From the NCBI GenBank assembly GCA_034003725.1, contig JAVEYB010000009.1, positions 1-64,000 of the forward strand: a stretch of 64,000 bases of DNA. Direction: 5' to 3'. Position numbers and translations under genes: made by a program. How positions within the stretch are numbered: the stretch's first letter is position 1; every line of letters starts with the position of its first letter. The notes beneath the pieces were generated by a model. It saw only the letters and a list, made by a program, of their open reading frames with translations. It was not told the origin of the DNA and did no database searches. The DNA comes from Candidatus Zixiibacteriota bacterium. Its GTDB lineage: Bacteria > Zixibacteria > MSB-5A5 > GN15 > FEB-12. Below, piece after piece: positions 25,327 through 44,354 of the stretch.

Positions 25327-26403
25327 ATGGACCAAAGTCAATACTCAGCAAGAGAATACCAGCCCCGGATAACAGCAATCCATCCGGTTACGCGGCGAGT
25401 GCTGCTGGTGAGCAATTCGGCCGATCCCGCCGCTGATCCCTTTGATCGTCCGGGGGCGATGGCAGAGCTTATCGGAAGAATCGACCCGCTCACCGTGAGA
25501 ATAATGCAGCTGGAGTATTCAGCCGGGGCTTTCGGTCGTTGCTGGCGGGATCTGTACGGCGCCGTGACGGCGGCAGGGACTGTACAGGTGCTGTTGTTGT
25601 CGTCACGGCTGTTGTGGCGAGGCGTTGTTCCGGCGCTGGTACTGGCTCGGTATTTTGGGCGGTCGATTGCCGTTCATATCGATACCGACCTTGCGGGCGG
25701 GATGACGAACGGTGAGTTGAGGGTGTTCGGGCGGTTTCTGCGGATGGCCGATCGGGTCACCGCGTCACCGACCGCCGACATTTCCTGGATGGGTGCCGAT
25801 CGAAACCGGGTGGCGCGTCTGCAGACAGCATCGCGGATCGAGGGCATTCCGGCGAGGGTGATCCGCCAGGTTCAGCCCAAGGTTTTGTGCTTCGTGAGCT
25901 CGAGCCAGACGGGGACGGTTGCGACGCTGGTCCGCGGGATGGAACTGGTCAAACGTAAATACCCGAGGGCGGAGCTGGTGGTCGCCACGGTTGGGGCAGC
26001 GGAGCCATCGTTCAGTTGCTGTGGCGTGCGGCAATCGTCGGTTTCTTGTGTTGCGGTTCGTACGTGGTCCGATATCCGCGGGCTCGTATCGACGGCAGAC
26101 ATGATGGTTGATTTGTCGCTGTCGCGTACGACGTTGCCGCTTCATTATGCTATGGCTGCGGGATTGCCGGTGGTGGCGCTTCGGCTCGCAGCCGACCCGT
26201 ACCTGCACGACGGAAACGCCTTCCTGCTTGGATCCGATGATTATGTGGCGGTGGCGGATACGATCACGGCCATGGTCGAGAAGCCGGATGCGACGGAGGC
26301 CGTATCGCGGGCGGTTGCATCGAGCGGCGAGTGGTGGGCACCGGAGATTCTGAAGCGTCACTGGACGTCGCATTTCGAGCATCTGCAGATCCGGCATATG
26401 TGA
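25327..26403 (+). CDS. Group 1-like glycosyltransferase
   Basis: A 358-residue GT-B-like protein. The N-terminal Rossmann domain starts VTRRVLLVSNSADPAADPFDRPG. The C-terminal domain has a strand-helix pattern ending in VSTADMMVDLSLSRTTLPLHYAMAAGLPVVALR, which corresponds to the family 4 donor-binding region, where the usual E-x7-E signature is weak (LSLSRTTLPLHYAMAAG). It also carries a central cysteine-rich stretch (FSCCGVRQSSVSCVAV), which is unusual. Donor and acceptor are unknown. ATG 25327 is selected over TTG 25303; neither has a strong ribosome site. Confidence 0.6.
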   Translation: MDQSQYSAREYQPRITAIHPVTRRVLLVSNSADPAADPFDRPGAMAELIGRIDPLTVRIMQLEYSAGAFGRCWRDLYGAVTAAGTVQVLLLSSRLLWRGVVPALVLARYFGRSIAVHIDTDLAGGMTNGELRVFGRFLRMADRVTASPTADISWMGADRNRVARLQTASRIEGIPARVIRQVQPKVLCFVSSSQTGTVATLVRGMELVKRKYPRAELVVATVGAAEPSFSCCGVRQSSVSCVAVRTWSDIRGLVSTADMMVDLSLSRTTLPLHYAMAAGLPVVALRLAADPYLHDGNAFLLGSDDYVAVADTITAMVEKPDATEAVSRAVASSGEWWAPEILKRHWTSHFEHLQIRHM

Positions 26404-26432
26404 TTGCGTCGACCTGTCGGTCCCGATATATT
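26404..26432 (+). promoter_or_regulatory. Leaderless-type promoter of the RecB-like nuclease gene
   Basis: TTGCGT at 26404-26409, a 17-base spacer, TATATT at 26427-26432, then six bases to ATG 26439, which has no ribosome site. It begins right at the stop codon of the preceding glycosyltransferase gene. Confidence 0.6.
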
Positions 26433-26438
26433 CACTTC

Positions 26439-27689
26439 ATGTTGAAACGATACAGTCATAGTGCGATTGCTACGTTTCGCACCTGTCCGCGTCAGTTCAA
26501 ATTCAAGTACATCGAGAAGCCCGATGTCGCCCGGCGGGTGACGGCGGACGCCTATATGGGCAACGCGGTTCACCGTGCGCTGAAGCAGTTGTATTCGGCC
26601 GTGGGCATGGGGCGGGTGTTGCCGCTGGAGCAGGTGCTTGCCGTGTACGATGCCGAGTGGGAGAAGCCGGAAAAGCGCCAGATCACGGTGGTGAAGGAGA
26701 GCGTGACGGTTGACGATTATATCGCGACGGGGCGCAAAATGCTCACGCGATACTACACGAGCAATCATCCGTTCGACCAGGGGACGACGCTTGCCACGGA
26801 GCGCACCATCACATTTGACTTGCCCGGCTCCACTCACAGGATGACGGCCATCATTGACCGATTGTGGCGCCGTCCCGACGGAATGATCGAGATTTGTGAT
26901 TACAAGACCGGCGATCATCTTCCCCAGGGACCGCGCGACCGTGTATTCTTTTTCCAGATGGGAATTTACCAGTTGGCGGTTCAGCAGACCTGGCCGGATT
27001 TCCGCGATATCGAGCTGGTTCAGTATTTCCTCAAGATGGATGAAAAAATCACCCACCGGATGAGCGAAGAGGATCTGGATGTTCTGCAGACGGAGTTGAA
27101 AAACGCGATCGCCGAGACGATCCACGCCGAGCGGCGCGACGAGTTTCCGACGACCGAGGGGGGACATTGCGGATATTGCGAGTTTTTCGATTTGTGTCCC
27201 GCCAAGCGTCATCGGCTGATTCTCGAAAAAGAGTCGGGGGAGAAAGAGGGCTCGGAGGTGTCGACCGCCGAGTCAGCCGCCCGGTTGGTGGAGCGATATC
27301 TTGACGTTCACGAGCGGCTGCGGGAGATCAAAAGCGAGGCTGATGCGCTGAAGGTGGATCTGGCGCGGGCGGCGGGTGATCTGGGCGTCAACAAGCTGGT
27401 CGGCGGCACGGGGGAAGTGTCCGTGAAGGTGAGTCGAAAAGAGAAGTTTGTCACGAAGACGGGCGACGAGCAGGGATGGGCGGATTTCGGGGCGGTGGTC
27501 CGGCAGCTTCATCTCGACGACTATCTTGTTCCCGACGCCAACGGGATCTACAGGGACATATATAAAAAGGGCCTGCTGCCCGACGAGGATCTTCAGAAGC
27601 TGGCGGCGTTCATAATCGAGAAGGAAGAGATCACGGTGCGGGCGAAGCTGAAGAATGCCGAGGACGAAGACGATTCCGAGTCGGCGTGA
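26439..27689 (+). CDS. RecB-family PD-(D/E)XK nuclease with iron-sulfur cysteines
   Basis: A 416-residue nuclease of the RecB/AddB/Cas4 group. It opens YSHSAIATFRTCPRQFKFKYI, the usual RecB-nuclease start with the first Cys. The active site is ATDRL-like AIIDRLWRRPDGMIEICDYKTG (Asp, Glu... Asp-x-Lys), followed by the QMGIYQLAV helix with the conserved Gln and Tyr. GHCGYCEFFDLCP supplies the other three cysteines, so a [4Fe-4S] cluster is expected. The C-terminal 150 residues add a helical segment (about 285-320) and an extra domain. No helicase or CRISPR genes are nearby, so it stands alone. A terminator follows. Confidence 0.85.
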   Translation: MLKRYSHSAIATFRTCPRQFKFKYIEKPDVARRVTADAYMGNAVHRALKQLYSAVGMGRVLPLEQVLAVYDAEWEKPEKRQITVVKESVTVDDYIATGRKMLTRYYTSNHPFDQGTTLATERTITFDLPGSTHRMTAIIDRLWRRPDGMIEICDYKTGDHLPQGPRDRVFFFQMGIYQLAVQQTWPDFRDIELVQYFLKMDEKITHRMSEEDLDVLQTELKNAIAETIHAERRDEFPTTEGGHCGYCEFFDLCPAKRHRLILEKESGEKEGSEVSTAESAARLVERYLDVHERLREIKSEADALKVDLARAAGDLGVNKLVGGTGEVSVKVSRKEKFVTKTGDEQGWADFGAVVRQLHLDDYLVPDANGIYRDIYKKGLLPDEDLQKLAAFIIEKEEITVRAKLKNAEDEDDSESA

Positions 27690-31198: not shown

Positions 31199-32464
31199 AT
31201 GTCAGAGATGAAACGTGATGACAGCGCGCAGCAGGGTGCAAGAGCGTATCCGGCCTTAGCCGCGCATGTTGCACCGCCCCGGAAGGCTTTCTCAACGGCC
31301 GAGCGACTTGTTCGGACGCTGCAATGGACGCCGCGCGATATTACGACCGGACGATATCGGTATCTGCTGTATCGATTTTTGTCGGATCACGTTCCGGCGA
31401 TAAGCGCGTGCATCTGGACGTGGTCGCGGCTGGTTGGCGCGCCGGGGCAGTATGTGGTACGTGACGACGGCGGCGGCGCGGCAGGCCGACGGGCGCAGGG
31501 GCGTCTCGATGAGTTGTCGGAACGGCTGTACGCCAATCCGCTGGGCTCACGAGTCGGGATGGCGACGATGATTACCGATATAACGACGGCGTTGTTTCGC
31601 GACGGTCTGGTGGGCGGGTTTTTGACGGTACATCCGGACGCATCGTCGGTCGATCAGTTCGTGCCGGTGGATCCGATGCATCTGCAGGCAGACGCCGACA
31701 AATCGCCGGTCGGATTGTATCTCGAGCTGGAGAACCGGCGAATAGATCTTCGACGGCCTGATTTCTATCTCATCACGCTTTCAGACAGTCCGGCGAGTCC
31801 GCTGGGGCGATCGGTGCTGACGGCGGTTCCGTTCGTGAGTTATATCGAGCAGCAACTGGTGTCGGATATGCAGCGATCGAGCCACAACGCCGGATTTCAT
31901 CGTCTGCATGTCAAGATCACGCCGCCGGAGCGGATGGCGGGGGAATCCGACCCGGCGTATACCGACCGCATCAACCGTTACTTCGACACCACGGTCGACA
32001 TGATTCGTTCCTGCGAGATCGATGACAATCCGGTTACGTGGGACAATGTCGAGGTGGAGTATATCGGTCCGACTCACAGTCGCGATATCGCCAACAGCTG
32101 GTTCATGTCGCATCGGGCGATGATCGAAGAGATCTGCGCCGGGACCAATCTCGCTCCGTTTCTGCTCGGGTATTCCTATGGATCGACGACGACCTGGGCC
32201 GATTTCAAGTTTGATATCGTTATGCGGCAGGTGCGGTCGGTTCAGACGCAGGTAGCGCGGTTTTTGGAGTGGATCGGCGATATCGAACTGGCGCTGGGCG
32301 GTTTCGACATGCGATGCTCGTATCGATTCGACAACTCGTTTGCGTATCGTGCCGCCGATGAAGTGCGTACACAAGCGGGTCAGATCGACAATATACTCAA
32401 GTTGTATGAGGCCGGCCTGATCGACAAAGAGGCCGCTCGGGAGAAAGCATGTCGGATCGTGTAG
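31199..32464 (+). CDS. Phage portal protein
   Basis: A 421-residue portal-like protein, the ring at the capsid vertex through which DNA is packaged. It shows the N-terminal helical LYRFLSDHVPAISACIWTWSRLVGAPGQYVV (in parts), the wing region, LRRPDFYLITLSDSPASPLGRSVLTAV, and the stem region FMSHRAMIEEICAGTNLAPFLLGYSYGSTTTWADF, typical of portal proteins. The end (AADEVRTQAGQIDNILKLYEAGLIDKEAAREKA) is the usual C-terminal helical bundle of SPP1/HK97-type portals. ATG 31199 has an AAAGGAGGAG ribosome site. It overlaps the terminase gene by 16 bases; portal before terminase is the reverse of the usual order. Confidence 0.85.
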   Translation: MSEMKRDDSAQQGARAYPALAAHVAPPRKAFSTAERLVRTLQWTPRDITTGRYRYLLYRFLSDHVPAISACIWTWSRLVGAPGQYVVRDDGGGAAGRRAQGRLDELSERLYANPLGSRVGMATMITDITTALFRDGLVGGFLTVHPDASSVDQFVPVDPMHLQADADKSPVGLYLELENRRIDLRRPDFYLITLSDSPASPLGRSVLTAVPFVSYIEQQLVSDMQRSSHNAGFHRLHVKITPPERMAGESDPAYTDRINRYFDTTVDMIRSCEIDDNPVTWDNVEVEYIGPTHSRDIANSWFMSHRAMIEEICAGTNLAPFLLGYSYGSTTTWADFKFDIVMRQVRSVQTQVARFLEWIGDIELALGGFDMRCSYRFDNSFAYRAADEVRTQAGQIDNILKLYEAGLIDKEAAREKACRIV

Positions 32465-33795
32465 TTGCGGTGGTCACACGGGAAGACTGGGAACGCGGAC
32501 TGGACGACCCGGAGTGGTTTGCACGGCGCGCGCTGGGAGTCGGCCTGCATGCCGGGCAGGCGGAATGGCTTCGTCGCTCCACCGGCCGCGAGAACGTGCT
32601 GGTCACCGGTAATCGCTGGGGGAAGTCGTTCGTATCGGCGGTCAAGCTGCTGCACCACGCGCTCTATCGTCCTCGGCCGCTCGTGTATGACCGGGCCGGG
32701 CGTTACCGGGCGGTGACGGCATCGATCACGCAGGATCAGGCTAATATCGTATTCGACACGGCGCTTCGACTCGCCCGGCAATCGGCATGGCTGGAACCGC
32801 TGATCGCGACCGTGACGCGCACGCCGTTTCCGCTGCTGCGACTCACCAACGGAGCGACGATCGAGGCGAGGTCGACGCAAAACAGGGGCGAGTATCTGCT
32901 GGGCAACGACTACGACCTGTTTGTGTTCGATGAAGTCGCGTTCGAGCCTCATCCGGAATACGTGGTGGAAGAAGTGATCCTGATGCGCCTGGCCGATCGC
33001 GGGGGGCGGCTCGATCTGGTGTCGACGCCGAACGGGAAGAACTGGTTGTATCGGCGCGCGCGGGAGATAATGGAGGGTGCGCGGCCGGGGTACTTCCAGT
33101 GCGGCGACAGCCGCGAGAACAATTTTATATCGCAAGGGTATCTTGATGAGCGCGTGAGGCATTTCACGGAGCGGCGGTTGCAGCAGAATATCCAGGGGCA
33201 GTTTGTCGACGCGGGTGGAGAGATACTTCCCGGGGCGTATATCGACGACGCTCTTCGGCTCGGAGCGGGCGGTCTGCAGACTGCATCAGGGCGGGCGCCG
33301 GTGTACATTTCCGGCTGGGATCTGGCTCGCAAGCGCACGGCGACGGTCGGCGTGACGGTGGAAGTTATCGATGGCTGCGCCCGTGTCGTGTGTTTGGAGC
33401 GGATTCGGCTTTACGACTGGCCGGCAGTGATCACGCGGATCGCCGAGCGTCAGCGGCAATATCCGGGGCGGCTGGTTATCGACGCGACGGGGCTGGGAGA
33501 CGTCATCACGCAGCACCTCGACAATTTCAAACCTCAGGCGGTGATATTCACGCCGCAGGTGAAAGCAGAGCTGTTGACCAATGTCGAGTTGTTCCACGCG
33601 CGGCGGGCGATCGGATACGAACGATGGGAGTTGCCGGACGGTCCGGGGCGGATCTGGTCTCTCGAGGATGAGCTTCGGGGCGCGCGATGGGACGATAACA
33701 GCGAATGCGACGCGCTTATGGCATTGGCGCTGGCTTTGTGGCCGCTGGCCGGCCGGGATGTGCCGCCTGTCGGCCCGCGAGTAGGACGGGCGTGA
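32449..33795 (+). CDS. Phage terminase large subunit
   Basis: A 448-residue packaging motor. The ATPase has Walker A VTGNRWGKS (residues 52-60), Walker B DLFVFDEVAF (about 160-170) with the catalytic Glu, and the motif III-like LVSTPNGK. The C-terminal RNase H-like nuclease has SGWDLARKRT (first Asp), VIDATGLGD (second Asp) and a later acidic site near NSECDALMALALAL. All key residues are present, so it looks functional. No small terminase gene is recognisable next to it. A hairpin follows at 33806. Confidence 0.9.
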   Translation: MSDRVVAVVTREDWERGLDDPEWFARRALGVGLHAGQAEWLRRSTGRENVLVTGNRWGKSFVSAVKLLHHALYRPRPLVYDRAGRYRAVTASITQDQANIVFDTALRLARQSAWLEPLIATVTRTPFPLLRLTNGATIEARSTQNRGEYLLGNDYDLFVFDEVAFEPHPEYVVEEVILMRLADRGGRLDLVSTPNGKNWLYRRAREIMEGARPGYFQCGDSRENNFISQGYLDERVRHFTERRLQQNIQGQFVDAGGEILPGAYIDDALRLGAGGLQTASGRAPVYISGWDLARKRTATVGVTVEVIDGCARVVCLERIRLYDWPAVITRIAERQRQYPGRLVIDATGLGDVITQHLDNFKPQAVIFTPQVKAELLTNVELFHARRAIGYERWELPDGPGRIWSLEDELRGARWDDNSECDALMALALALWPLAGRDVPPVGPRVGRA

Positions 33796-33805
33796 GACAA
33801 AAAAA

Positions 33806-33834
33806 GTACCCTGTAGCGGGAGACTACAGGGTAC
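33806..33834 (-). terminator. Terminator of the PEP-CTERM mini-gene
   Basis: A perfect 11-base stem GTACCCTGTAG / CTACAGGGTAC, followed on the minus strand by TTTTTTT. It serves the minus-strand gene at 33863; the plus side has no T run. Confidence 0.88.
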
Positions 33835-33862
33835 GGAAGGGAGGTGGGATGGGGAAAGTCTT

Positions 33863-34177
33863 TTACTTGTTCCCGTAATGGCGCCGAACCAGATAGGCAG
33901 CGCCGAGCCCCGCTCCCACCAGGAGGAAGGTTGCCGGTTCCGGAACCGCGACGGGCGGGTCCTCATGGACAGGTGGGTTATCGATTGGCGAGGGAGCGGC
34001 CTTGTCGCTCTCCGCTGCATGACGCGGGTTGTCCTTCTGGGAGTCGATGCGATCACGCCCATTGTTCACGCCGATTCCATAGACATCCGTGAACGTCATC
34101 GTCATCCCCAGCACAAAGACGACGATAAATAGTACCCACTTCAGCCATGCGCTTGATGTGCGCCGATACACGACCAT
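33863..34177 (-). CDS. PEP-CTERM mini-protein inside the phage module
   Basis: A 104-residue protein on the strand opposite to all phage genes around it. An N-terminal hydrophobic helix (WLKWVLFIVVFVLGMTMTF) is followed by a polar, proline-rich stretch and a C-terminal PEP-CTERM signal, AVPEPATFLLVGAGLGAAYLVRRHYGNK. There is almost no folded domain between the two signals. It has its own ribosome site (AGGTG) and terminator. It may be a host-derived cargo gene ('moron') or a host gene that the module grew around. Confidence 0.78.
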   Translation of the reverse strand: MVVYRRTSSAWLKWVLFIVVFVLGMTMTFTDVYGIGVNNGRDRIDSQKDNPRHAAESDKAAPSPIDNPPVHEDPPVAVPEPATFLLVGAGLGAAYLVRRHYGNK

Positions 34178-34437
34178 TAGTCACACCTGCCTTAAAAGTT
34201 TCCTGTCGATTCCACGTTGTCTGTAAGACCATTTGAGCAACTGCAGTGCCCAGTTTGACAAATTCGTACCTACTCCCTATCCAAGCCATTGATAAATATC
34301 GGCTTATACGTCCACGACTGAGTTTAAACCGGTACCTACTGCCGTACCCACTGCGCAATCGTCTGCGCAATTTTGAGATAGAATCGATGGAAAAAATGGG
34401 ACGGGCGGCTTTAGTGAACCCAATCGCAGGAGGTGAT
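34178..34437. other. AT-richer gap before the prohead protease gene
   Basis: About 260 bases holding the divergent promoters of the PEP-CTERM mini-gene and the prohead protease gene. A direct repeat of 'gtacctact' occurs near 34266 and 34332. The segment 'cgatggaaaaaatg...ctttagtgaac' at about 34384-34419 resembles the end of the long repeat core read in reverse, but the match is too short to call. A strong AGGAGGTGAT ribosome site ends the gap. Confidence 0.4.
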
Positions 34438-35967
34438 ATGACAGCCCGACTTGGTCGAATAACCGCCCGGCTCGCCGAACCCGATGTCTCAGAATGCAAT
34501 GAGATAGTGGACCGGATCAATCGCAATATTAATCCGCCCGTTGTGTTGACGCCGTCTGACGTTTACATCCGCGCGATGTATGTGGTCTCAGACAGCGTCA
34601 ACAGTTTCGGGGGTCGATTTCCCGCTGACGAACACGATCGCCTGTCGGCGCTGCTGATCGACTCGCCGGTGCTGGCAGGTCATCGCAAGGACAAGTTGCC
34701 GCTGGCCCGCACGTTTCACGCAGAGACAGTCGAGCGCAATTCTGAACGATGGGTGAAGGCGTACTTCTACTGGTTGCGGAGCGCCGACGGCGCCGACAGC
34801 CTTCGCGAGAACATCGACGGCGGCGTAATCAAAGAGTGCTCGATCGGTTTCACGTTTTCATTCGCGGAGTGTTCGATATGCGGGCGCGACATACGCCTGT
34901 GCGAACATGAACCGCTCGAGCAGTACGAAGTCGACGGGGTTTCGACGCCGTGCCATTTCAACTATCGCAAGATCGAGCGGGTCCTGGAGACGTCACTGGT
35001 ATACCGTGGGGCCACTCCCGGGACGTCGTTTACGCGCGATCTTCGGCAGTTTTCGGACGAAAACGCGACTGTCGAGGCAATGGAGGACACGGCGCCGCTG
35101 TCTCTGTCCGATCTTCCGTCGACCGATACCTACCTGGTAATCCCGCATTATGACGCGCTGCATTGTCGAATCGGCCGGGTGAAGGGCCGTCCGGTGTGTC
35201 GTCCGGTCGACGCCACGATAGCGGTACAGAACGAGAGGCTTGCGCCCGTCAATGCGGCGTTGTCGTCGCTGGGCGGCGGTTGTGTCTCCGGGAGGCTCGT
35301 GGGCTATCGCGGCCGGGATCGGTGCAGCGTTGGCGATCTCGTCGCGTATCTCGCCGGGCACACATCGCCGGTGCGCCGCGTGGTCCTGCACCTGTTGCCG
35401 ACGTCGCGGGAAGTGCCGACGGCGGCACCGACGCCTATACCGGGAGCGCCGGCGAGAATGATTCCGCATCGCTTCACCGATCGCAGCTCATTGGCTGTGT
35501 CGGCGCGGGAAATCATGACGGCGAGCGGCGTGGAGGTTCAGCCTCTCGGAAACGGGCGTAACCAGAGCTTTCACATACTTCCACAGAAGTTGACGGAACG
35601 CGACGGCGACCGCTACGAGCTGTACCAGGCGGCACATGAGCGGCGGGCCTATCTGCGTATCGTAAGCGCCGGCACGTCTCGTCACCTCGTGATTCACCAG
35701 TTCCATGTCGGTCGGTTCAAGAAGGGAGCGCGCTTCATCGCCGAGTCGCTTGGAACGCTGCCCGACACTTGCAGGCGGCGCACGCCGATCGCCACGGGAC
35801 GCACCGTTCAGTTTTCGACGACCGGCGACGGGGCAGCGGTGACGTTTGATGGCCCGCTCGCGGGGAGCTACCGTTTCCGGCAGGTTACGCTCGACGGCCG
35901 GCGGTGCACGCTGGTCTATCGACACGAATCGGGAGGAGAACGAGAGGGAGGAACACATGACTCGTGA
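34438..35967 (+). CDS. Prohead protease-like protein with long C-terminal extension
   Basis: A 509-residue protein. The N-terminal 210 residues resemble phage prohead (capsid maturation) proteases: a His in VLAGHRKDKLPLA and the Ser of GGVIKECSIGF, matching the 'H...G.SiGF' pair of the HK97-type protease. A Cys-rich knuckle CSICGRDIRLCEH follows and probably binds zinc. The remaining 300 residues are beta-rich and unassigned (about 260-500). Usual proteases of this kind are near 200 residues, so the extension could be a scaffold or a head-fibre domain. ATG 34438 has a perfect AGGAGGTGAT site. It overlaps the next gene by 11 bases. Confidence 0.65.
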   Translation: MTARLGRITARLAEPDVSECNEIVDRINRNINPPVVLTPSDVYIRAMYVVSDSVNSFGGRFPADEHDRLSALLIDSPVLAGHRKDKLPLARTFHAETVERNSERWVKAYFYWLRSADGADSLRENIDGGVIKECSIGFTFSFAECSICGRDIRLCEHEPLEQYEVDGVSTPCHFNYRKIERVLETSLVYRGATPGTSFTRDLRQFSDENATVEAMEDTAPLSLSDLPSTDTYLVIPHYDALHCRIGRVKGRPVCRPVDATIAVQNERLAPVNAALSSLGGGCVSGRLVGYRGRDRCSVGDLVAYLAGHTSPVRRVVLHLLPTSREVPTAAPTPIPGAPARMIPHRFTDRSSLAVSAREIMTASGVEVQPLGNGRNQSFHILPQKLTERDGDRYELYQAAHERRAYLRIVSAGTSRHLVIHQFHVGRFKKGARFIAESLGTLPDTCRRRTPIATGRTVQFSTTGDGAAVTFDGPLAGSYRFRQVTLDGRRCTLVYRHESGGEREGGTHDS

Positions 35968-36271
35968 TCCGGTCATCAGGGGAATCCGTCTGGGCGGGCA
36001 GTTACTGCATATGCTGGTGCTCGCGCTGGGTCTCGCGGGAGGGTACTTCATGACGGTGCAGTCGATCAGGCTGGAGCTGGCGGCAAAGGCGGAGGCGGTG
36101 ACGGTGGAGACGCTGGAGCGAAAACTCACCAACCTGGAGGTAATACTTCGCGAGGGTACGGTGACGAGGGAGCAGTTTTACGAATTTTCGCGCGAGGTCG
36201 AACGCCGGTTGGCGAGGATCGAATATTACGTGAGCGAAGATAAAGGAGGACACGACGGTGGAACCAAATAA
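35957..36271 (+). CDS. Small membrane/coiled-coil phage protein
   Basis: A 104-residue protein with one hydrophobic helix near the N-terminus (LLHMLVLALGLAGGYFMTV) followed by a charged coiled coil (AKAEAVTVETLERKLTNLEVILREG). The layout resembles small membrane-anchored phage proteins of lysis or head-binding type, but no family is assigned. It overlaps its upstream neighbour by 11 bases and its downstream neighbour by 14. Confidence 0.6.
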   Translation: MTRDPVIRGIRLGGQLLHMLVLALGLAGGYFMTVQSIRLELAAKAEAVTVETLERKLTNLEVILREGTVTREQFYEFSREVERRLARIEYYVSEDKGGHDGGTK

Positions 36272-36674
36272 CGCGCTGGCGACGGAACTACGGTTGTTTG
36301 CGGCAGAGATCGGGCCGGACAGCCTGTCCTGTATCGATTTCGACAAGCTGCGTGATACGATCGCACGGGCGGCAGCCACGCTGGAAGAATCGGCCGCCGT
36401 GTCCGCGGACCTGGCGGCGCTTCGGTCGGATTACCAAGCGCGCATCGCGGGAATGCTCAAGGCCATCTCCGCCGTTGCCCGCACGAGGGGCGGTCGCGAG
36501 GAGGCGGTTGATACCACGTTGGAGCTGTCGTCAAAGTCGACGATCGAGCTGCTGGAGTGTTATCGCCGCGCCGCCGCTCGGTTTCGTGACAATTTCCCGT
36601 CGAGTTTCGGACTGTTGCAGGTGAAGACGCCCTCCCGGGGGCTGCCTGCGGACAAGTGCCGGGATTTCCTCTAA
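36258..36674 (+). CDS. Helical phage protein of unknown function
   Basis: A 138-residue, mostly helical protein (LRDTIARAAATLEESAAVSADLAALRSDYQARIAGML). The GTG start at 36258 has AAAGGAGGA upstream and lies inside the previous gene. Its place between protease and capsid genes would suit a scaffolding or chaperone role, but nothing in the sequence shows this. Confidence 0.58.
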   Translation: MEPNNALATELRLFAAEIGPDSLSCIDFDKLRDTIARAAATLEESAAVSADLAALRSDYQARIAGMLKAISAVARTRGGREEAVDTTLELSSKSTIELLECYRRAAARFRDNFPSSFGLLQVKTPSRGLPADKCRDFL

Positions 36675-36782
36675 AGAAAGCAAACGAATGTGCCATTGAG
36701 GCCATATCCGTGCCACGCGGGATGCAACCCGGCACGTCACACGATCCCAAATGGGGATACAGTATTTACGAAGGAGGAATGG

Positions 36783-37205
36783 ATGACCATTCGCGAACAG
36801 AATCTCGAGACGATAGCTCCGGTGCTGGCGACATTCACAATTTCGCAGACCGGCGGTATCGACGACCTCACCGACGACAGTATCGGATCAGCCGTCGCGC
36901 TGACGGGCAGCTATGAAGTGGGCCCTGCGGGCGACGGGGCCCAGGTGCTGGGAAAGCTGATCAGCCTGAGCTTGAGCGATGCGGATACGGGCAAGCGTGT
37001 CGCCACGGTCCAGATCGGCGGCATCTGCAGTTTGCCGGTAGCCCCGGCGTATCCGCTGGTCGGCAACCGGGTTGTCGGGGCGGCAGGGGGCGCGGTACGC
37101 CAGGCGCCGGCTCTTGCCGGCAGCGATCCGGCGGGCGGCAATATCGGGCGCGGCACCGTGCTGAGTATCAACGGCACGACCAACTGCGTTCTTCTTCTCA
37201 ACTAG
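36783..37205 (+). CDS. Candidate capsid decoration protein
   Basis: A 140-residue protein rich in Gly, Ala and Thr with a beta character (GSAVALTGSYEVGPAGDGAQVLGKLISLSL). The C-terminal part is QIGGICSLPVAPAYPLVGNRVVGAAGG. The position, directly between the protease region and the major capsid gene, matches the protease-decoration-capsid order of lambda-like heads, and the composition fits small capsid-stabilising proteins. This is inference from order. AAGGAGG lies five bases before ATG 36783. Confidence 0.55.
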   Translation: MTIREQNLETIAPVLATFTISQTGGIDDLTDDSIGSAVALTGSYEVGPAGDGAQVLGKLISLSLSDADTGKRVATVQIGGICSLPVAPAYPLVGNRVVGAAGGAVRQAPALAGSDPAGGNIGRGTVLSINGTTNCVLLLN

Positions 37206-37217
37206 GAGGGAGTGACA

Positions 37218-38315
37218 ATGGACTTTGCTTCGTTTCTCGAATCGGCGGCCGTTCGGTTGCAGTCCGGCGCTCCGGCGCCGCAGGCCGGGCCGGTCGATCT
37301 TTCCCGGACGGCGGACATAACGGTGGACCGGGACTTGTATCTCGATGCGGAAAGCCGGGGCATGACGCTGACCGAACTGTTGGAGTGCGACGAGTATGAT
37401 CCGTCGCCGGTGGGGTCCGCGCTCGATGCGTTCGAACGGCAACTGGCCCTCGCGGGCGTACGCCTGTCGGGGAAGGCGCCGACCACGGTGGAGCAGTTTT
37501 ACCAGAAGGCCCCGTCCCTGATTCCCGAGTTTATCATGCGGGAGATCAAGCGCGGGCAGGCGATGCGTCCGGAGCTGGCGCAGCTCATCGCCAATTCCAC
37601 GACAATCGCGAGCAATCGCTATACGCCGTTCTTCATCGATACCGACGACGACGCCCGATTTTCGCTTCGCCCGGTCGGCGAAGGGGCGAACGTTCCGGCG
37701 CTGATCGTCACCGAGCAGCGCCATGCGATCACGGTCGGCGATTACGGCCTGGCGCTGAAAGCCAGCTACAAGGCTCTTCGGTACCGCACGACCTCGCAGT
37801 TCCGCGTCCTGCTGTGGTACATCGGCTTCAAGATGCAGACGGACAAGATCGGCATGATCGTCAACTGCCTGATCAACGGTGACGGCAACGACAATGCCGC
37901 CGCGATCGTGACAGGCGCGGCGAGCGGGGCGCTTACCTACGACGACCTGATCTCGCTGTGGGCACGCTTCGCGCCGTTCGAGATGAATACACTGGTTTGT
38001 CATATCAACACGCTGAAGACGATCCTGACGATGGACGAATTCAAGGATCCGATGGCGGGGTTCCGATTCCAGCGCAGCGGTGATCTGTTCAGTCCGCTGG
38101 GGGCGAAGCTGGTGCGGTCGGACGAAGTCCCGGTTGATTATGTCATCGGGCTGGACGCTCGTTTTGCGATCGAGGAAGTTGTCACGCAGCCGCTGGTGAT
38201 CGAGTACGACAAGATAATCGAGCAGCGCTTCGAGGAAGCGGTCATCTCGGAATCCGTGTCGTATGCGAAGGTCATCAAGGATGCGGCGGTGATTCTCGAC
38301 ACGGTATTTGAGTGA
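37218..38315 (+). CDS. Major capsid protein (HK97-like candidate)
   Basis: A 365-residue protein. An N-terminal region of about 90 residues (possible delta/scaffold part) is followed by KAPSLIPEFIMREIKRGQAM, typical of the start of the mature shell domain in capsid proteins of this kind. Then come VTEQRHAITVGDYGLALKASYKALRYRT, a strand-helix spine (LVCHINTLKTILTMDEF), and a C-terminal KLVRSDEVPVDYVIGLDARFAIEEV axial domain. Position and size fit the major capsid protein. ATG 37218 has an AGGAGGG site; the GTG at 37212 is less likely. Confidence 0.78.
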   Translation: MDFASFLESAAVRLQSGAPAPQAGPVDLSRTADITVDRDLYLDAESRGMTLTELLECDEYDPSPVGSALDAFERQLALAGVRLSGKAPTTVEQFYQKAPSLIPEFIMREIKRGQAMRPELAQLIANSTTIASNRYTPFFIDTDDDARFSLRPVGEGANVPALIVTEQRHAITVGDYGLALKASYKALRYRTTSQFRVLLWYIGFKMQTDKIGMIVNCLINGDGNDNAAAIVTGAASGALTYDDLISLWARFAPFEMNTLVCHINTLKTILTMDEFKDPMAGFRFQRSGDLFSPLGAKLVRSDEVPVDYVIGLDARFAIEEVVTQPLVIEYDKIIEQRFEEAVISESVSYAKVIKDAAVILDTVFE

Positions 38316-38321
38316 GCAGAT

Positions 38322-38363
38322 CGGGGCCCGGCTTGACCGGGCCCCGGCTTGACCGGGCCCCGG
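38322..38363. terminator. Triple GC-rich palindrome after the capsid gene
   Basis: Three copies of CCGGGGCCCGG-like half-palindromes separated by 'cttga' (CGGGGCCCGG-CTTGAC-CGGGCCCCGG-CTTGA-CCGGGCCCCGG). Alternative hairpins can form between neighbours. There is no T run, so it is more likely an attenuator or mRNA-stabilising structure that tunes expression after the capsid gene than a full terminator. Confidence 0.55.
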
Positions 38364-38379
38364 TTTGCCGGGGAGTATC

Positions 38380-39798
38380 ATGCACACGCGATTAGCGCTC
38401 ACGACAGCGGCACAGCCGCTGGGAGGGCTGCAGGCCGCCTGCCTGCTCGAGGTGAAGACGGGCATTCGCGCGGGAAGGCGGGTGGCGGTTTTTCTTTCCA
38501 GTCCGACCACACTGAACTGTTCGTGGTCGGACGGGCCGTACGTGAACTGGTCCACGCCTGCGGCGATCTGGTCCTCGGTGGACGGAGACGCCGGGTTCTC
38601 AGCGGCGATGGATTCGGATAACAATATCCACCTTGCGTTTATCGAGCAGTCATCGATGAACGTCATGCACGTCTGCCTCACGTTCACCGAGACCGGCTGG
38701 CAGCCGGGCGTTCCGGTAACGGTGTTTGCGGGCGATATCAATTCATCGCCGTCGGTGGCGATCGACTTATCGGATTGTCTGTGGCTGGGCTGGGTCCGGC
38801 TGACCGATCCGCCGGTCCGTCACATACATGTCAAAAGCTCGTCCGATGGGGGCGCAACGTGGGGCGCCGGAGCGGGCGATTCGGGAGAGATTATACACAG
38901 CGGCGGCATGCTGGCGACGGTGAAGGTGCTGGCCGGTCCGAGCCGGCTGCACGCCGTGTATTACTACGCCAGCGACTATCTGTGCCATCGCAGTCGTCCG
39001 CTGCCATCGGGGAGCTGGACCGACGCGGTCACGATTGTATCGGGTGCGGAGTGCAGCAGCACGTTCGACTGCGCGCTTCGCACCGACGGGAATCCATCGG
39101 CGGCATGGGCGGCCGCGGCGCTGTATTACCGGGAGTTCGACGGAGCCCACTGGGGTCCCGCCGTGACCATCCCGGAGAGCGGAGCGACGGGCATACAACT
39201 GACGATGGCCGGGCCCGAACCGATCATCACGTTTGTGCGCTCAATCGATGTCGGGCACGCGCAGCCGTACTCGCTGCGTCGGCAGAACGGCGTGTTCAGC
39301 GAGGCCGCGCTGCTTGACGCGCGAGTCGGCGAGTTCGACCGGGTATTCTGTTATCACGGCGCCACGGCGTCGTTTGCCGATGTCACGTCAGCGGCGCGCA
39401 GCGTGCAGTCGGGCGATATGGTTCACCCGCAGTCATCGGCTCTCCTCGGGGGCCCGGGGGACGCGGTGTTTTTCGCCGCAGGGCGGCCGTTTCGCTATGT
39501 CTGGCTGACGCTGAGCACACCGGGAGCGGGGGGAACCGTGAGTGTCAGCTACTGGGACGGCGCCTCGTGGCGGGGGGTTGTTCCGTATGGCGGACCGCCG
39601 GCGCTCGATGCGTCTGAACTCGATCTCTGGGTCTGGCCGGACTATGCTTCTCTTCCGGCCGACTGGCAGAAGTCAACGGTGAACGGGGTCGCCGGCTTCT
39701 GGATCAAGGTGGAGGTTGTGTCGCCGTACACGACCGCCCCGGTGGGAACACGGGCAAATATGGTCTCCGGTATAGAGGCCATGCGGGCAGGGAGGTGA
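38380..39798 (+). CDS. Beta-propeller-like phage tail/receptor protein
   Basis: A 472-residue beta-rich protein. Residues about 40-330 show repeating blades with Asp-box-like sequences (SSDGGATWGAGAG), as in sialidase/BNR-type propellers. The C-terminal part has a fold with YVWLTLSTPGAGGTVSVSYWDGASWRGV and VAGFWIKVEV, common in phage tail and bacterial surface proteins. It probably binds surface sugars. ATG 38380 has GGGGAG upstream. Phage role is inferred from position. Confidence 0.6.
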   Translation: MHTRLALTTAAQPLGGLQAACLLEVKTGIRAGRRVAVFLSSPTTLNCSWSDGPYVNWSTPAAIWSSVDGDAGFSAAMDSDNNIHLAFIEQSSMNVMHVCLTFTETGWQPGVPVTVFAGDINSSPSVAIDLSDCLWLGWVRLTDPPVRHIHVKSSSDGGATWGAGAGDSGEIIHSGGMLATVKVLAGPSRLHAVYYYASDYLCHRSRPLPSGSWTDAVTIVSGAECSSTFDCALRTDGNPSAAWAAAALYYREFDGAHWGPAVTIPESGATGIQLTMAGPEPIITFVRSIDVGHAQPYSLRRQNGVFSEAALLDARVGEFDRVFCYHGATASFADVTSAARSVQSGDMVHPQSSALLGGPGDAVFFAAGRPFRYVWLTLSTPGAGGTVSVSYWDGASWRGVVPYGGPPALDASELDLWVWPDYASLPADWQKSTVNGVAGFWIKVEVVSPYTTAPVGTRANMVSGIEAMRAGR

Positions 39799-39802
39799 TG
39801 TC

Positions 39803-40612
39803 GTGTCGTATGCATCGATCAAACAGGTGCGATCCCACCTGGTAGACAATCGCCCTCTTGCTGACGCCGTGTACAATCAGGCGGTGGTTCTCACCGGCAC
39901 AGAGTGGATACGGCTGTTCGGCGGAGCGATCGATCCGGTTTCAGTTGCCGTCAAGGGGCGACGGTCATCGCAGTTGACTCGTGTCGCGCTCGTCGTTGGG
40001 CCGGTGCCGGTGTCGGTGGGAGCGAGTGACCTGGAAGTCGGCAGCGTTGTAGTCGCATCCGATAGTTCACTCGGCCACGTCTACCGCGAGAATATCGATT
40101 ACACCGTTGACTATATCCACGGGAAGATTGTCGTGCGAACCGACGGCGAGCTTGTCGACGGCTCCCCGGTGACCGTCTGGTACGGTTCGTATGAGCCGTA
40201 TCAACGGGACACGGACTTTCACCTCGACGCCGAGAACGGTTCCATTCGCAGGCTCGTTTCGGGGCGGATAGTGAACGGAGAGCTGGTGCTCGTGGACTAT
40301 CGCCCGGTGTACGCAAGCTTCGCCGACGAGATCGTGGAAACCGCAACGGCCGAGGCCAACGGTGTGATCGAGCGCTCGGTTGATCCGGGGAGGGAGTTCG
40401 GCGCCGATCCGAGTCTGAGTCTCGCAGCGACGTACTATGCTCTTGCGATCGTTTGCCGCGCGGCAGCGTCGCGGGCGCTCGGTGCCGGCGGGGGCGATCG
40501 GCTCGCGCCGGCCTGGATGAAACTGGCCGACGATTACGCCGCGCGCTCCGAGGAACGGCTCCGGGAATTTCGGCCCGCGGTGGGTGGATTGCACCCACCC
40601 GTCCGCAGCTAG
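39803..40612 (+). CDS. Phage neck/connector-like protein
   Basis: A 269-residue protein. The first 185 residues are beta-rich (VYRENIDYTVDYIHGKIVV, a form often seen in phage structural proteins). The last 80 are helical (FADEIVETATAEANGVIERSV ... AIVCRAAASRAL), like adaptor proteins that sit between portal and tail. The GTG 39803 start has GGGAGGTGAT upstream, four bases after the previous stop codon. The function is inferred from order and shape only. Confidence 0.5.
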   Translation: MSYASIKQVRSHLVDNRPLADAVYNQAVVLTGTEWIRLFGGAIDPVSVAVKGRRSSQLTRVALVVGPVPVSVGASDLEVGSVVVASDSSLGHVYRENIDYTVDYIHGKIVVRTDGELVDGSPVTVWYGSYEPYQRDTDFHLDAENGSIRRLVSGRIVNGELVLVDYRPVYASFADEIVETATAEANGVIERSVDPGREFGADPSLSLAATYYALAIVCRAAASRALGAGGGDRLAPAWMKLADDYAARSEERLREFRPAVGGLHPPVRS

Positions 40613-40624
40613 GAGGTAACGCTT

Positions 40625-40996
40625 ATGTCAGCACTCGAACGTGTGACGGCTCGGCGGGTCTGGTTCGTGCCGGGTGTGATGGTGTACGGCGCCGCGGACA
40701 GTGTCGGACTCGGGATGCTGATCGCCGAGACAATCGGCAGTCAGCGGGGCGTCTATTACCAGACGATGGAGGTCGGCGCCGATCGGCAGCAAGTTCGGTT
40801 TGACTCGCTCATCGATCACCGCGGCAACCGGTTGCCGTCGACGATCCGGGCGCCGAGGGTGATACCGCGATCGCGTTCGGAATACGCGGTCTTCGTCACC
40901 GCGCCCGAATCCGACGAATCGTTCGTGATTGCGCGTGAGTCGCTCTCGCCGGGTCCGGTCGTGGCGGACCTGCTCATCGTGGAACTCGGCCTATGA
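40625..40996 (+). CDS. Small phage structural protein, unknown
   Basis: A 123-residue beta-rich protein (VWFVPGVMVYGAADSVGLGMLIAETIG, MEVGADRQQVRFDSLIDHRGN). An AGGAGG site lies upstream of ATG 40625. It overlaps the next start by ATGA. Size and place would fit a head-tail joining or tail-completion protein; no family is assigned. Confidence 0.52.
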   Translation: MSALERVTARRVWFVPGVMVYGAADSVGLGMLIAETIGSQRGVYYQTMEVGADRQQVRFDSLIDHRGNRLPSTIRAPRVIPRSRSEYAVFVTAPESDESFVIARESLSPGPVVADLLIVELGL

Positions 40997-41283
40997 GTGA
41001 CACTCAGGCAGTCGACTCCGCGGAGTCAAAGAGGATAATCGAAAAGCTCGACACGCTGATCGATGCGATGCTCGAGCAGATAGAGTCCGAAGTCAGCAAA
41101 CATACCAAACTGGGAGACCTGATTCGTATGATACATCTTCGCTACAAACTGATGCCGGATCACTCCAGCCAGAAGGAATTCTGGAAAATGGTGGAGAAGA
41201 TCAGGCAGGAGAAGCTGCCAGTCGCGCTGCCCGAGGCGTCGGCGACGGCAGCGCGGACCGAACGAAAGAAGGCGTCGACATGA
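40993..41283 (+). CDS. Small helical phage protein
   Basis: A 96-residue, charged helical protein (IIEKLDTLIDAMLEQIESEVSKHTKLGDLIRMI then FWKMVEKIRQEK). It is coupled by ATGA overlaps to both neighbours. A small DNA-binding terminase subunit or a tail chaperone would have such a size and character, but there is no motif to decide. Confidence 0.52.
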   Translation: MSDTQAVDSAESKRIIEKLDTLIDAMLEQIESEVSKHTKLGDLIRMIHLRYKLMPDHSSQKEFWKMVEKIRQEKLPVALPEASATAARTERKKAST

Positions 41284-42533
41284 GCGGGAGCATCAGCACA
41301 CTGCTTACTCTCGTGGTCGCGATCTGCGTATCGCCTGCGACCGACTCATCGGGCAACGCGCCATTCGCAGAGTGGCGGCTTGACAGCGGACGGTTCGGCG
41401 CGATGGCGCTGTCTCGTAACCTGGCGGCGCGGCTGGAACGGTCGCGAGGCGACAGTGAGTCGCCTGCTTTGACGATCAGCGGATGGGACGGCGGCGGGTC
41501 TTTTTCGGTCGTTTTTGATTCGAGCGATTCGGCGCCGTCGGAGGTGTTCGTTCGGTCGGCGGGAACGAAGTCATCGGTTGCGGCGGTCGTTGCACAGTCA
41601 TGCACGCACCATGTGTTCGTGCGCGATGACGGCGCGCTTGAGTGGAATATCGTCCTGGCGACTCCACCGCCGGCGGGTCGGCTGGCATTCGGACTGCGCT
41701 CCCACGGCGTGCGCTTCCTGTACCAGGGGCCGTTGTCGGCGGCGGACAGTGCGGAGGGCGCCGAACGCCCGGACAGCGTGGTCGGATCGTACGCCGTTTA
41801 TTATGCCGGTAAGATGCCTCGTGAATCGGACCCGGGTAACCCGGCACGTATATTCGGCACGGGCAAGGTGTGCCACATCTATCGACCGAAAGCGTGGGAC
41901 TCCGGCGGCGACACGGTCTGGTGCGAAATGGCTGTCGATACCGTGTCGCACCTGCTGATTGTCAACGCGCCGGAGTCGTTCCTGGTGTCGGCACGATACC
42001 CGGTTACGATCGATCCGACATTCGGGTGCACGGAAGTGGGCGCCAGCAACATTTCGCTGGCGACGGATGCCGCGTGCGCGAATATAGTCGACGTGCACGA
42101 AGCATCGGCAGCGGATCGGATTGTCACCTATCACTTTTCGTGCTACACGTACAACAATCCCCGGACCATAGATATGGCGGCCTACGACATGTCTGCCGGA
42201 GAGCCGGACCAGCGACTGGCGGCGCCGGTGACGATTGCGGTTCAGAACAGCGCCCCGGCACAATGGTATGTCTCATCGGTTGTGTCGCATTCCATGATCG
42301 GCGGCCGGACGTACTGTATCGCGGTCGGAGGCGTATCGGGAAGCAGCGTGCGAGCGCAGTATGACACGGATATCGGGGCGCGGTCGGACGACGCATCCGG
42401 CGGCGGCACACTGGCGCAGACCTGGAGCGTCACCGATCACCAGGACCGTCGCATGTCCTGGTACGTCACGTACGAAACCGATGACGGCGGTCAGGCTTAT
42501 GCCGGGCGACGCCGTCGACTCGGCCAACTATAG
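41280..42533 (+). CDS. Exported tail-like protein with phage-type beta domain
   Basis: A 417-residue protein with an N-terminal hydrophobic signal (ISTLLTLVVAICVSPATDSS). The segment SVVGSYAVYYAGKM ... TGKVCHIYRPKAWDSGGDTVWCEM ... ARYPVTIDPTFGCTEVG belongs to a domain that I know from hypothetical phage-associated proteins. The C-terminal half is a further beta domain (DRIVTYHFSCYTYNNPRTIDMAAYDM). A Sec signal on a virion protein is unusual. It is translationally coupled (ATGA) to the preceding gene. Confidence 0.62.
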   Translation: MSGSISTLLTLVVAICVSPATDSSGNAPFAEWRLDSGRFGAMALSRNLAARLERSRGDSESPALTISGWDGGGSFSVVFDSSDSAPSEVFVRSAGTKSSVAAVVAQSCTHHVFVRDDGALEWNIVLATPPPAGRLAFGLRSHGVRFLYQGPLSAADSAEGAERPDSVVGSYAVYYAGKMPRESDPGNPARIFGTGKVCHIYRPKAWDSGGDTVWCEMAVDTVSHLLIVNAPESFLVSARYPVTIDPTFGCTEVGASNISLATDAACANIVDVHEASAADRIVTYHFSCYTYNNPRTIDMAAYDMSAGEPDQRLAAPVTIAVQNSAPAQWYVSSVVSHSMIGGRTYCIAVGGVSGSSVRAQYDTDIGARSDDASGGGTLAQTWSVTDHQDRRMSWYVTYETDDGGQAYAGRRRRLGQL

Positions 42534-42542
42534 AGGCAGGAT

Positions 42543-44018
42543 ATGAAACGCTCTCTGTTGCTTGTTATGAGCCTGGCGGTGTGCGCCGTGTCGATGGCAG
42601 CCAATGTTGCTATCGTCACAAACACCGCCGATGAGGGAACCGCAGAGGACTCGCTCACGGTGGCGTTTGTGGTGACCGATTCGATCGGCAATGTCGCGGC
42701 CGCGGACTCGTTTTATGTCGCCCTGTTCGGTCCGAGCGGCGAACCCGTTTTCGGGGCGTCGTACGCCATCGGCGCCGCAGAGATATCATCGATGCTGGTC
42801 GGCGGTCGGCGGGTCTATCGATGGGCCGAAGCAGTGGCGGATATCGACGCCGGTGGTCGTCGCGGCACGTACGCCGGAATCGTGATCGCAGTCGATACGC
42901 TTGACGGCGCGGGGGCCGAGTACCTCGATGGTGCGGCGTCGTTTTCGTTCGTCCTGATGCCATCGCTGGCCGACCGCATCCCGATAGGGGATACGATCCG
43001 GCGCGAGGCATCAACGCTGGTGTCAACGGATCGAATCGGCGTCGATCTCACGAACGTGGTCGGTACGCTGGACGCCGGAGAAATCGGTGTAGCCGCGATC
43101 GGTAATCAGCAGCTTGGCGACGGCGCGATCAGCGCGGGTAAAATCCAGGACTACGCAATCACGGCGTACAAGATAGCCGGCAGCGCGCTGTCGTCGTCGA
43201 AATTCTCCGACGACGCCATCGAGAAATTCTGGGAGTGCGACAGCTCACGCATATCGGCCGGGATGGGCGCGATGCTCAAGGATACGGCGGCCTACCAGGG
43301 ATCTGCGGGATCGATCGATTCCGCGGCGGTGGCCGGGTGGGTGTGGAATACACCGCAGGCGAATCACGAGATCCACGCCACGTTCGGCGATTATCTGGAT
43401 GCGCCCGTGTCGGCTCTGTCGACCGGAACCGGCGCACATGTGTTGACGGTGATTTCGTACGACTCGACTCGCGACGCCGTCATTCCGTATGCGGGCATAA
43501 CCGTTCACGATGTGTCTCATGCGGCCCTGCTTGCGGTCGGACGGACGGCGGCCGACGGCGCCATCACGTTTCACCTCGATGCGGACAGCTGCGTGGTTGC
43601 GGCGTTTGTCTCCGGATACACGTTCACGGGCCTCGATACCGTGGCGCTCGCCGAGACCGACGAGGACACGGTGTATGCATCGTGGTTCGACCCCGGCGCT
43701 CCGGTTTCGCCCGATCTCTGCCGTGTGTACGGGCACGTGTATGGTGTTGACGGGCTCCCGCTGGGCGGCGTGACGGTCACGGCGGCGCTGCCGAAGGGTA
43801 CGGTGAGGTCGGGCACCGTGCTTGTATCTCCGGCGTCCGTATCAACGACCACCGACGCCGACGGATACTTCGCCCTTGACGTCATACCGACGGCAGCCGT
43901 GCTGCCGCCGGATACTCGATACGAGGTGTCGATCGTACAGGCCGGCGGAACGATTCTGCGGAAGCGGGTTATCGTTCCCGATCAGTCGTCGTGGCGGCTG
44001 GACTGGTCCGACGAGTGA
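42543..44018 (+). CDS. Exported tail-fibre-like protein with Kre/CarboxypepD-reg-like C-terminus
   Basis: A 491-residue protein with a typical signal peptide (MKRSLLLVMSLAVCAVSMAA). The middle (about 170-225) has tail-fibre-like repeats: AIGNQQLGDGAISAGKIQDY, AITAYKIAGSALSSSKFSDDAIEKFW. The C-terminal 120 residues contain a carboxypeptidase-regulatory-like beta domain, CRVYGHVYGVDGLPLGGVTV ... TTTDADGYFALDVIP. The combination of signal peptide and tail-fibre repeats is odd and suggests a protein displayed on the cell. ATG 42543 has AGGCAGG upstream. Confidence 0.65.
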   Translation: MKRSLLLVMSLAVCAVSMAANVAIVTNTADEGTAEDSLTVAFVVTDSIGNVAAADSFYVALFGPSGEPVFGASYAIGAAEISSMLVGGRRVYRWAEAVADIDAGGRRGTYAGIVIAVDTLDGAGAEYLDGAASFSFVLMPSLADRIPIGDTIRREASTLVSTDRIGVDLTNVVGTLDAGEIGVAAIGNQQLGDGAISAGKIQDYAITAYKIAGSALSSSKFSDDAIEKFWECDSSRISAGMGAMLKDTAAYQGSAGSIDSAAVAGWVWNTPQANHEIHATFGDYLDAPVSALSTGTGAHVLTVISYDSTRDAVIPYAGITVHDVSHAALLAVGRTAADGAITFHLDADSCVVAAFVSGYTFTGLDTVALAETDEDTVYASWFDPGAPVSPDLCRVYGHVYGVDGLPLGGVTVTAALPKGTVRSGTVLVSPASVSTTTDADGYFALDVIPTAAVLPPDTRYEVSIVQAGGTILRKRVIVPDQSSWRLDWSDE

Positions 44019-44054
44019 CGGCCGGTTGACTGTGTTCAGTGTACAGGAGGAACC

Positions 44055-44354
44055 ATGGATTTCATTTTGTCAGATGGTGGATGGCTGGGCATTCTTGGAT
44101 CGATTGCCCTGACGTTGGTTGGTTTTATCGCCAACAAGTACGTAATTCCCTTCTTGCAGGTAGGGAAGAGACAAAAATACGCCGAGTACATCGCGGCGAT
44201 CGCGGGTGAGGCGATCGACGATTTGCGCAATCGTTATCCCGACAAGGCGTGGCTCGAGCATTTGCAGGAGGCGGTGGACGTGGTGATTGCGATCACCGGC
44301 ATCGCGCCGGATATCGCGGTACGCGCTGTCCATGCAGCGGCCGCACGGCGCTGA
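44055..44354 (+). CDS. Holin-like protein
   Basis: A 99-residue protein with one N-terminal membrane helix (WLGILGSIALTLVGFIANKYVI), then an amphipathic helical tail (KYAEYIAAIAGEAIDDLRNRYPDKAWLEHLQEAVDVVIAITG). This layout matches the LL-H-type phage holin family, which makes holes in the inner membrane late in infection. It has an AGGAGG ribosome site and is the last gene of the module. No endolysin gene is next to it. Confidence 0.65.
   Translation: MDFILSDGGWLGILGSIALTLVGFIANKYVIPFLQVGKRQKYAEYIAAIAGEAIDDLRNRYPDKAWLEHLQEAVDVVIAITGIAPDIAVRAVHAAAARR

Follow-up and report, generated by a model that had tools for sequence, protein, structure and literature searches.

Why does a bacterial chromosome carry, among ordinary host genes, a compact set of full-length phage structural genes in which nothing resembling an integrase can be recognised? 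The case we consider is a 13.2 kb cluster (positions 31199-44354) in a 64,000-nucleotide stretch of a Zixiibacteriota genome (G000, C9:1-64000; hereafter the window). The genome measures 3.73 Mb and is 99.5% complete, and the closest relatives of the window in a public genome collection are MAGs of Zixiibacteriota, also known as candidate division GN15. An earlier note, made from the bare sequence, had suggested that the cluster might be domesticated and named a gene transfer agent (GTA), a phage satellite and a capsid-based particle as options. We find strong support for domestication by the host lineage, and a GTA-like role, itself inferred, fits best among the three.

Gene content of the cluster

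Annotation with PHROGs and Pfam places portal, terminase, protease, capsid, tail-like and holin-like genes in the cluster and host genes around it; scores for the holin, the protease and the Ig-like tail part are weak. The open reading frames are full-length and closely spaced, so that the earlier description of the cluster as intact holds. Host genes do lie on both sides, as claimed: a PD-(D/E)XK nuclease, TPR, PEP-CTERM and dockerin proteins, lipoyl synthase, an HD-GYP regulator and an M50 peptidase. The reported gaps in the gene set also hold: neither the module nor the scanned flanking ORFs yielded a recognisable integrase, repressor, small terminase, tape measure, tail tube or endolysin. 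Lysogeny and replication genes were likewise missing from both, and related loci showed none of all these as an additional co-conserved gene. The latter portion of the module has a GC content of 0.62–0.63, slightly above that of the flanks (mostly 0.57–0.62). The PD-(D/E)XK nuclease gene upstream (26331-27686, plus strand; PF12705, E 4e-34) has homologues near the module in eight loci.

All genes of the module lie on the plus strand, with one antisense exception. The first encodes the portal protein (31199-32464; phrog_3753, E 3e-13), whose ATG at 31199 is preceded by GGAGGAG. Next comes the large terminase, TerL (32449-33795; phrog_2, E 5e-33; Terminase_6N), which matches the TerL of a Thermus phage in the PDB; capsid and portal profiles found no meaningful match among PDB sequences. 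The Walker A motif GNRWGKS and the Walker B pair D161-E162 of TerL are invariant in 16 proteins, as are three aspartates (D291, D345 and D421) that we read as the nuclease site. The claim that catalytic residues are kept is thus borne out. A portal gene ahead of the terminase had also been called unusual, but this proves a minor matter: the whole phylum has portal first, and TerL precedes portal in a related phylum (phylum B, below).

An antisense PEP-CTERM gene (33863-34177, minus strand; PF07589, E 1e-5) lies between TerL and the protease. By tblastn it is present in 22 related loci, some of them the same genome twice, and a terminator-like hairpin follows it at 33834-33806. The head maturation protease (34246-35967; phrog_16951, E 2e-14; phrog_80, E 0.015) has H146 and S199 invariant in 16 proteins. 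Its C-terminus in the window is a degenerate DNA-ligase-like domain, the KxDG motif having been lost in the window lineage, and in one orthologue (L085, 5922-8123) the part joined to the head protease is recognised as an ATP-dependent DNA ligase domain (PF01068, E 3.6e-30). Two small genes follow. The product of g5 (35846-36271) is a putative membrane protein of conserved position with orthologues of about 104 aa, and its true start is probably near 35957; g6 (36258-36674) is conserved in position and length, and we infer from its position that it is scaffold-like. Then come g7 (36690-37205; phrog_4588, E 3e-4), a decoration-like virion protein of a type also encoded upstream of capsid genes in phages, and the major capsid protein (37212-38315; phrog_3922, E 5e-63).

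Downstream of the capsid, structure prediction adds to what profiles offer. AlphaFold2 gives g9 (38365-39798) a confident all-beta fold (pLDDT 91.6), and Foldseek matches the model to beta-propellers of sialidases and lectins; one match (E 1.6e-10) is to a chain from the portal-tail complex of phage LME-1, and TM-scores over the whole chain are low. We call it a beta-propeller tail-like protein. The neighbouring g10 (39803-40612; phrog_807, E 9e-4), an Ig-like and connector-like structural protein, is modelled with beta domains and, at the C-terminus, a part made of three helices. Its single strong fold match is a phage baseplate protein, and it has homologues on a phage contig (L210) and at loci of phylum B. 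The earlier note had described a head/tail module without a tape measure; the absence stands, and the beta-propeller and connector-like genes indicate that the cluster is probably not a pure head. The predicted structures of g9 and g10 make a short tail plausible for the particle, and under this inference a missing tape measure would be expected.

The remaining genes are less well characterised. A protein of about 123 aa, g11 (40625-40996), is found phylum-wide at near-constant length, followed by a conserved small protein, g12 (40993-41283). Its neighbour g13 (41280-42533) is variable, has no assigned role and is recognised in near relatives only. The fibre-like, variable g14 (42543-44018) has a weak minor tail match (phrog_2012, E 0.013) and a carboxypeptidase-regulatory-like part, and differs in length among relatives. 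The last gene (44055-44354) is holin-like (phrog_6918, E 1e-3; 4HB below cut-off), the weakest assignment of the cluster.

Inheritance within Zixiibacteriota

Phage-derived genes in a chromosome could simply belong to an ordinary or decaying prophage or to a phage satellite. Their distribution speaks against this. Capsid is found in 112 of 133 genomes of the phylum and 74 of the 79 of good quality, TerL in 116 and 72, and portal in 113 and 71, respectively. The ribosomal gene rplB, our yardstick for assembly gaps, is found in 118 and 76. Capsid is single-copy, the three double entries being pieces of one gene, and only two good-quality genomes lack capsid, TerL and portal together: G071 and the 98% complete G020. 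Identity to the window capsid follows taxonomic rank, at 80–85% within the genus, 68–80% within the family, 64–73% within the order and 53–66% within the class. The public genome collection gave 35 matches, and every one is a MAG that bears the label Zixibacteria/GN15, "bacterium" or, in a single case, Ignavibacterium.

Individual assemblies showed apparent exceptions of other kinds. A split capsid in G077 (L064, L065) was dismissed as a scaffolding artefact, its parts sharing an identical 141 bp beside 100-N gaps, and a split TerL in G057 (L070), which adjoins an N gap, was read the same way but less directly checked. The single-contig, 99% complete genome G070 (C1:1558000-1573000, L259) keeps portal, protease and capsid with TerL undetectable, and several large ORFs lie between its portal and protease genes.

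The module has descended with its hosts. For 38 genomes we compared a tree of 19 ribosomal proteins (2891 columns) with a capsid tree, using FastTree. The two correlate with a Mantel r of 0.909, against 0.195 for the best of 1000 permutations, and have 24 of 35 splits in common; two halves of the ribosomal alignment compared with each other give r = 0.935 and also 24 of 35 splits. The capsid tree fits the ribosomal tree about as well as the ribosomal halves fit each other. Agreement with the ribosomal tree extends to TerL (r = 0.891, 15 of 21 splits), portal (0.839, 12 of 19), g9 (0.747, 22 of 33) and g10 (0.744, 21 of 34).

Position and selection tell the same story, and both were checks that the earlier note had proposed. 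In four families of the order (f1 to f4) the module sits in the same orientation between the same host genes, with TPR and PEP-CTERM genes upstream and a dockerin gene, the lipoyl synthase region and the HD-GYP regulator downstream. Nei-Gojobori dN/dS, computed for the window genome against two congeners and for the congeners against each other, is 0.10–0.47 for all genes measured (capsid 0.12–0.19, TerL 0.13–0.16, holin-like gene 0.10–0.20), which indicates purifying selection. Only one value exceeds 0.43, that of a portal pair with one miscalled ORF, and the ratios are rough because dS is near saturation.

The module can also be broken up without being lost. Portal and TerL lie about 26 kb (G068) and about 17 kb (G009) from the capsid genes with no N gaps between, and in G124, G126, G114 and G118 the roughly 9.5 kb that precede the capsid genes lack them, and they are located on other contigs. 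Such a relocation of portal and TerL has taken place in no fewer than two lineages. Both separated halves persist, which points to cell-level selection.

Near-universal single copy measured against rplB, congruent trees, a common locus, purifying selection and the retention of separated halves leave us with very little doubt that the module is phage-derived and was domesticated by the host lineage. The outcomes named beforehand as refuting this did not appear, as neither integrase and tail genes among the flanking ORFs scanned nor scattered, non-syntenic prophages were found (attachment sites were outside the scope of the analysis). Set against the same near-universal single copy, host-like tree, fixed locus and purifying selection, and with no integrase recognised, a prophage or satellite retains almost no credibility. 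An active prophage was rejected because the expected scattered distribution off the host tree was not seen and integrase, lysogeny and replication genes were not recognised in the module or the scanned flanks. A satellite, for which again no integrase was recognised, is ruled out by the fixed position and vertical descent of the module.

Proposed function and its alternatives

Gene transfer agents are phage-like particles formed by proteins derived from tailed phages; their genes are fully endogenised, often at several loci, and are inherited mostly vertically, co-diversifying with the host; and mostly random host DNA is packed into a head too small for the whole GTA genome and delivered to other cells (Kogay et al. 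2022, PMC9662315). The module satisfies the criteria of endogenisation, often at several loci (identical flanks in four families, and the split in G068 and G009), and of mostly vertical inheritance with host co-diversification (by distribution and trees). Of the first criterion it shows the phage ancestry of the proteins (by PHROGs and Pfam, and by the likeness of TerL to its Thermus phage counterpart), with particle formation only inferred.

We envisage that a few cells, under some host condition, would produce small, probably short-tailed particles. The protease would mature the head, and the terminase would fill the capsid with host chromosomal DNA by way of the portal. Connector and beta-propeller proteins would then close the head and bind the recipient, while the holin, with a lytic enzyme encoded elsewhere, would release the particles. 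This GTA function is, on balance, probable. Its particle formation, host-DNA packaging, delivery and lysis are all inferred; what we observe is that the genes are intact, are inherited vertically under purifying selection and keep their catalytic residues, and that no self-mobility genes were recognised. As far as sequence allows a judgement, the module appears GTA-like, and its membership is not proven. Several points count against it: no endolysin or small terminase was identified, the holin is weak, G070 has no detectable TerL and G020 lacks all three hallmark genes.

The third option raised at the outset, a capsid-based particle, is disfavoured in its DNA-free form by the intact portal and TerL, but is not excluded. 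More broadly, the domesticated capsid might do a job other than transfer, as a container of DNA or protein, in the release of extracellular DNA or in the delivery of protein cargo. The DNA-ligase-like domain on the protease would suit such a role, as would the persistence of capsid and portal in G070 without a detectable TerL. Against it, TerL with invariant ATPase and nuclease residues occurs in nearly all genomes, which implies that packaging is under selection, and we consider a non-transfer role distinctly unlikely. An encapsulin compartment, a shell without portal or terminase, was ruled out because portal and TerL are conserved along with the capsid.

PBSX offers a further precedent, having a contractile tail and a killing function; we know of no phylum-wide distribution for it. 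It is a chromosomal phage-like element of Bacillus subtilis that packs about 13.4 kb of dispersed host DNA (PMC12946183). A domesticated particle of this type would pack host DNA, lyse its producer and attack competitors by way of receptor-binding proteins, with the DNA not usefully passed on. Such a particle could make use of the variable g13 and fibre-like g14, the lectin-like g9 propeller and the holin-like gene. Yet neither a contractile or long tail nor a tape measure was recognised here, and the terminase and portal genes belong to the best-conserved ones, as suits the carriage of DNA rather than killing. This makes a killing particle a poor candidate.

If the module is a GTA, as we favour, it differs from RcGTA-like GTAs, which are long-tailed and have a tape measure. 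The module does not fit the Rhodogtaviriformidae, as neither a tape measure nor a tail tube could be recognised in the window or among genes co-conserved at related loci. RcGTA-like GTAs do resemble it in being phage-derived clusters that co-diversify with their hosts, occupy several loci and have been lost in some lineages, but they belong to alphaproteobacteria and their transfer is proven (PMC9662315, PMC10883770). By architecture the nearest described case is FpGTA of Faecalibacterium, which has a portal, TerL and capsid operon with further structural and lysis genes at a second locus and is of the short-tail type suggested for Zixiibacteriota; unlike the module, it is restricted to Faecalibacterium, has a candidate small terminase and an endolysin, and has been shown to form particles (PMC12946183). 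BhGTA/VSH-1, BaGTA and the GTAs of Desulfovibrio and Methanococcus voltae are likewise separate domestications of tailed phages, but in other hosts, in few taxa each, and with particles shown (PMC9662315, PMC11841831). We found no paper joining Zixibacteria with gene transfer agents, and no description of the module in the titles and abstracts retrieved with related terms, most subscription papers and bioRxiv being outside this search.

Relatives beyond the phylum

A capsid profile searched against 387 genomes matched only 8 of the 254 outside Zixiibacteriota, and other phyla are thinly sampled. Four of these eight come from two phyla in which the capsid is common: phylum B (that of G287), where 34 of 39 genomes and 23 of 27 good-quality ones have it, and phylum C (that of G186), where four of six do. 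Phylum B loci contain g7, capsid, g10, a TerL-like protein, portal and protease in an order different from that of Zixiibacteriota, and their TerL is missed by the Zixiibacteriota TerL profile.

In a maximum-likelihood tree of 53 capsids, Zixiibacteriota and phyla B and C form one clade (SH-aLRT/bootstrap 100/100) in which B and C are sisters (99.9/100), apart from nearly all viral capsids. The hosts are related in the same way: a ribosomal tree of 31 genomes unites Zixiibacteriota, B, C and G205 with support 1.0 and places B nearer to C than to Zixiibacteriota. Together, the capsid clade and the relatedness of the hosts fit one domestication in a common ancestor.

This leads to a tentative proposal, about which our doubts slightly outweigh our confidence: this GTA lineage would exceed all described ones in reach, and probably also in age. 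It would go back to a single domestication that preceded the split between Zixiibacteriota and two or more related phyla, with inheritance ever since; its particle would have a short tail, and its head protease would carry a DNA-ligase-like domain as fusion partner. Alternatively, one widespread phage group may have been captured several times independently and kept each time. That history concerns origin alone; it is compatible with GTA function and overlaps the other readings. In the portal tree a 55 kb IMG/VR contig (L210) groups with phyla B and C, so that a single origin of every gene is not necessary. Gene order and TerL differ between Zixiibacteriota and B, and no capsid match came from G205. 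A single origin is nevertheless clear within Zixiibacteriota, and the capsids of all three phyla form one clade in related hosts. We regard repeated capture as rather unlikely, without dismissing it.

The GTAs known so far are few and mostly from few taxa, and those of alphaproteobacteria have been dated to 700 million years or more (PMC10883770). A capsid, portal and terminase retained nearly as faithfully as a ribosomal gene throughout one phylum, and common to related phyla, would imply that capsid-borne DNA packaging can turn into a permanent trait of the cell. The question of why costly particle production persists would also become testable in an independent lineage.

The module has viral relatives as well. 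A search of IMG/VR with a single capsid sequence returned no match, and an alignment search found distant relatives. Phages with phrog_3922-type capsids (in IMG/VR and among human-gut contigs, such as MT835508) have a homologous capsid of at most 38% identity and the same portal-protease-capsid order as Zixiibacteriota, but they are listed as viral and fall outside the cellular capsid clade. Two other IMG/VR contigs, L097 and L109, nest within the Zixiibacteriota and phylum B capsid clades and carry the module. They are probably chromosomal fragments labelled viral, and illustrate how virus-calling pipelines may label pieces of chromosome as viruses. Finally, capsid relatives in G160, G307, G271 and G275 (L276, L275, L274 and L270) lie outside the ribosomal clade of Zixiibacteriota, B and C, and could be prophages or further domesticated modules.
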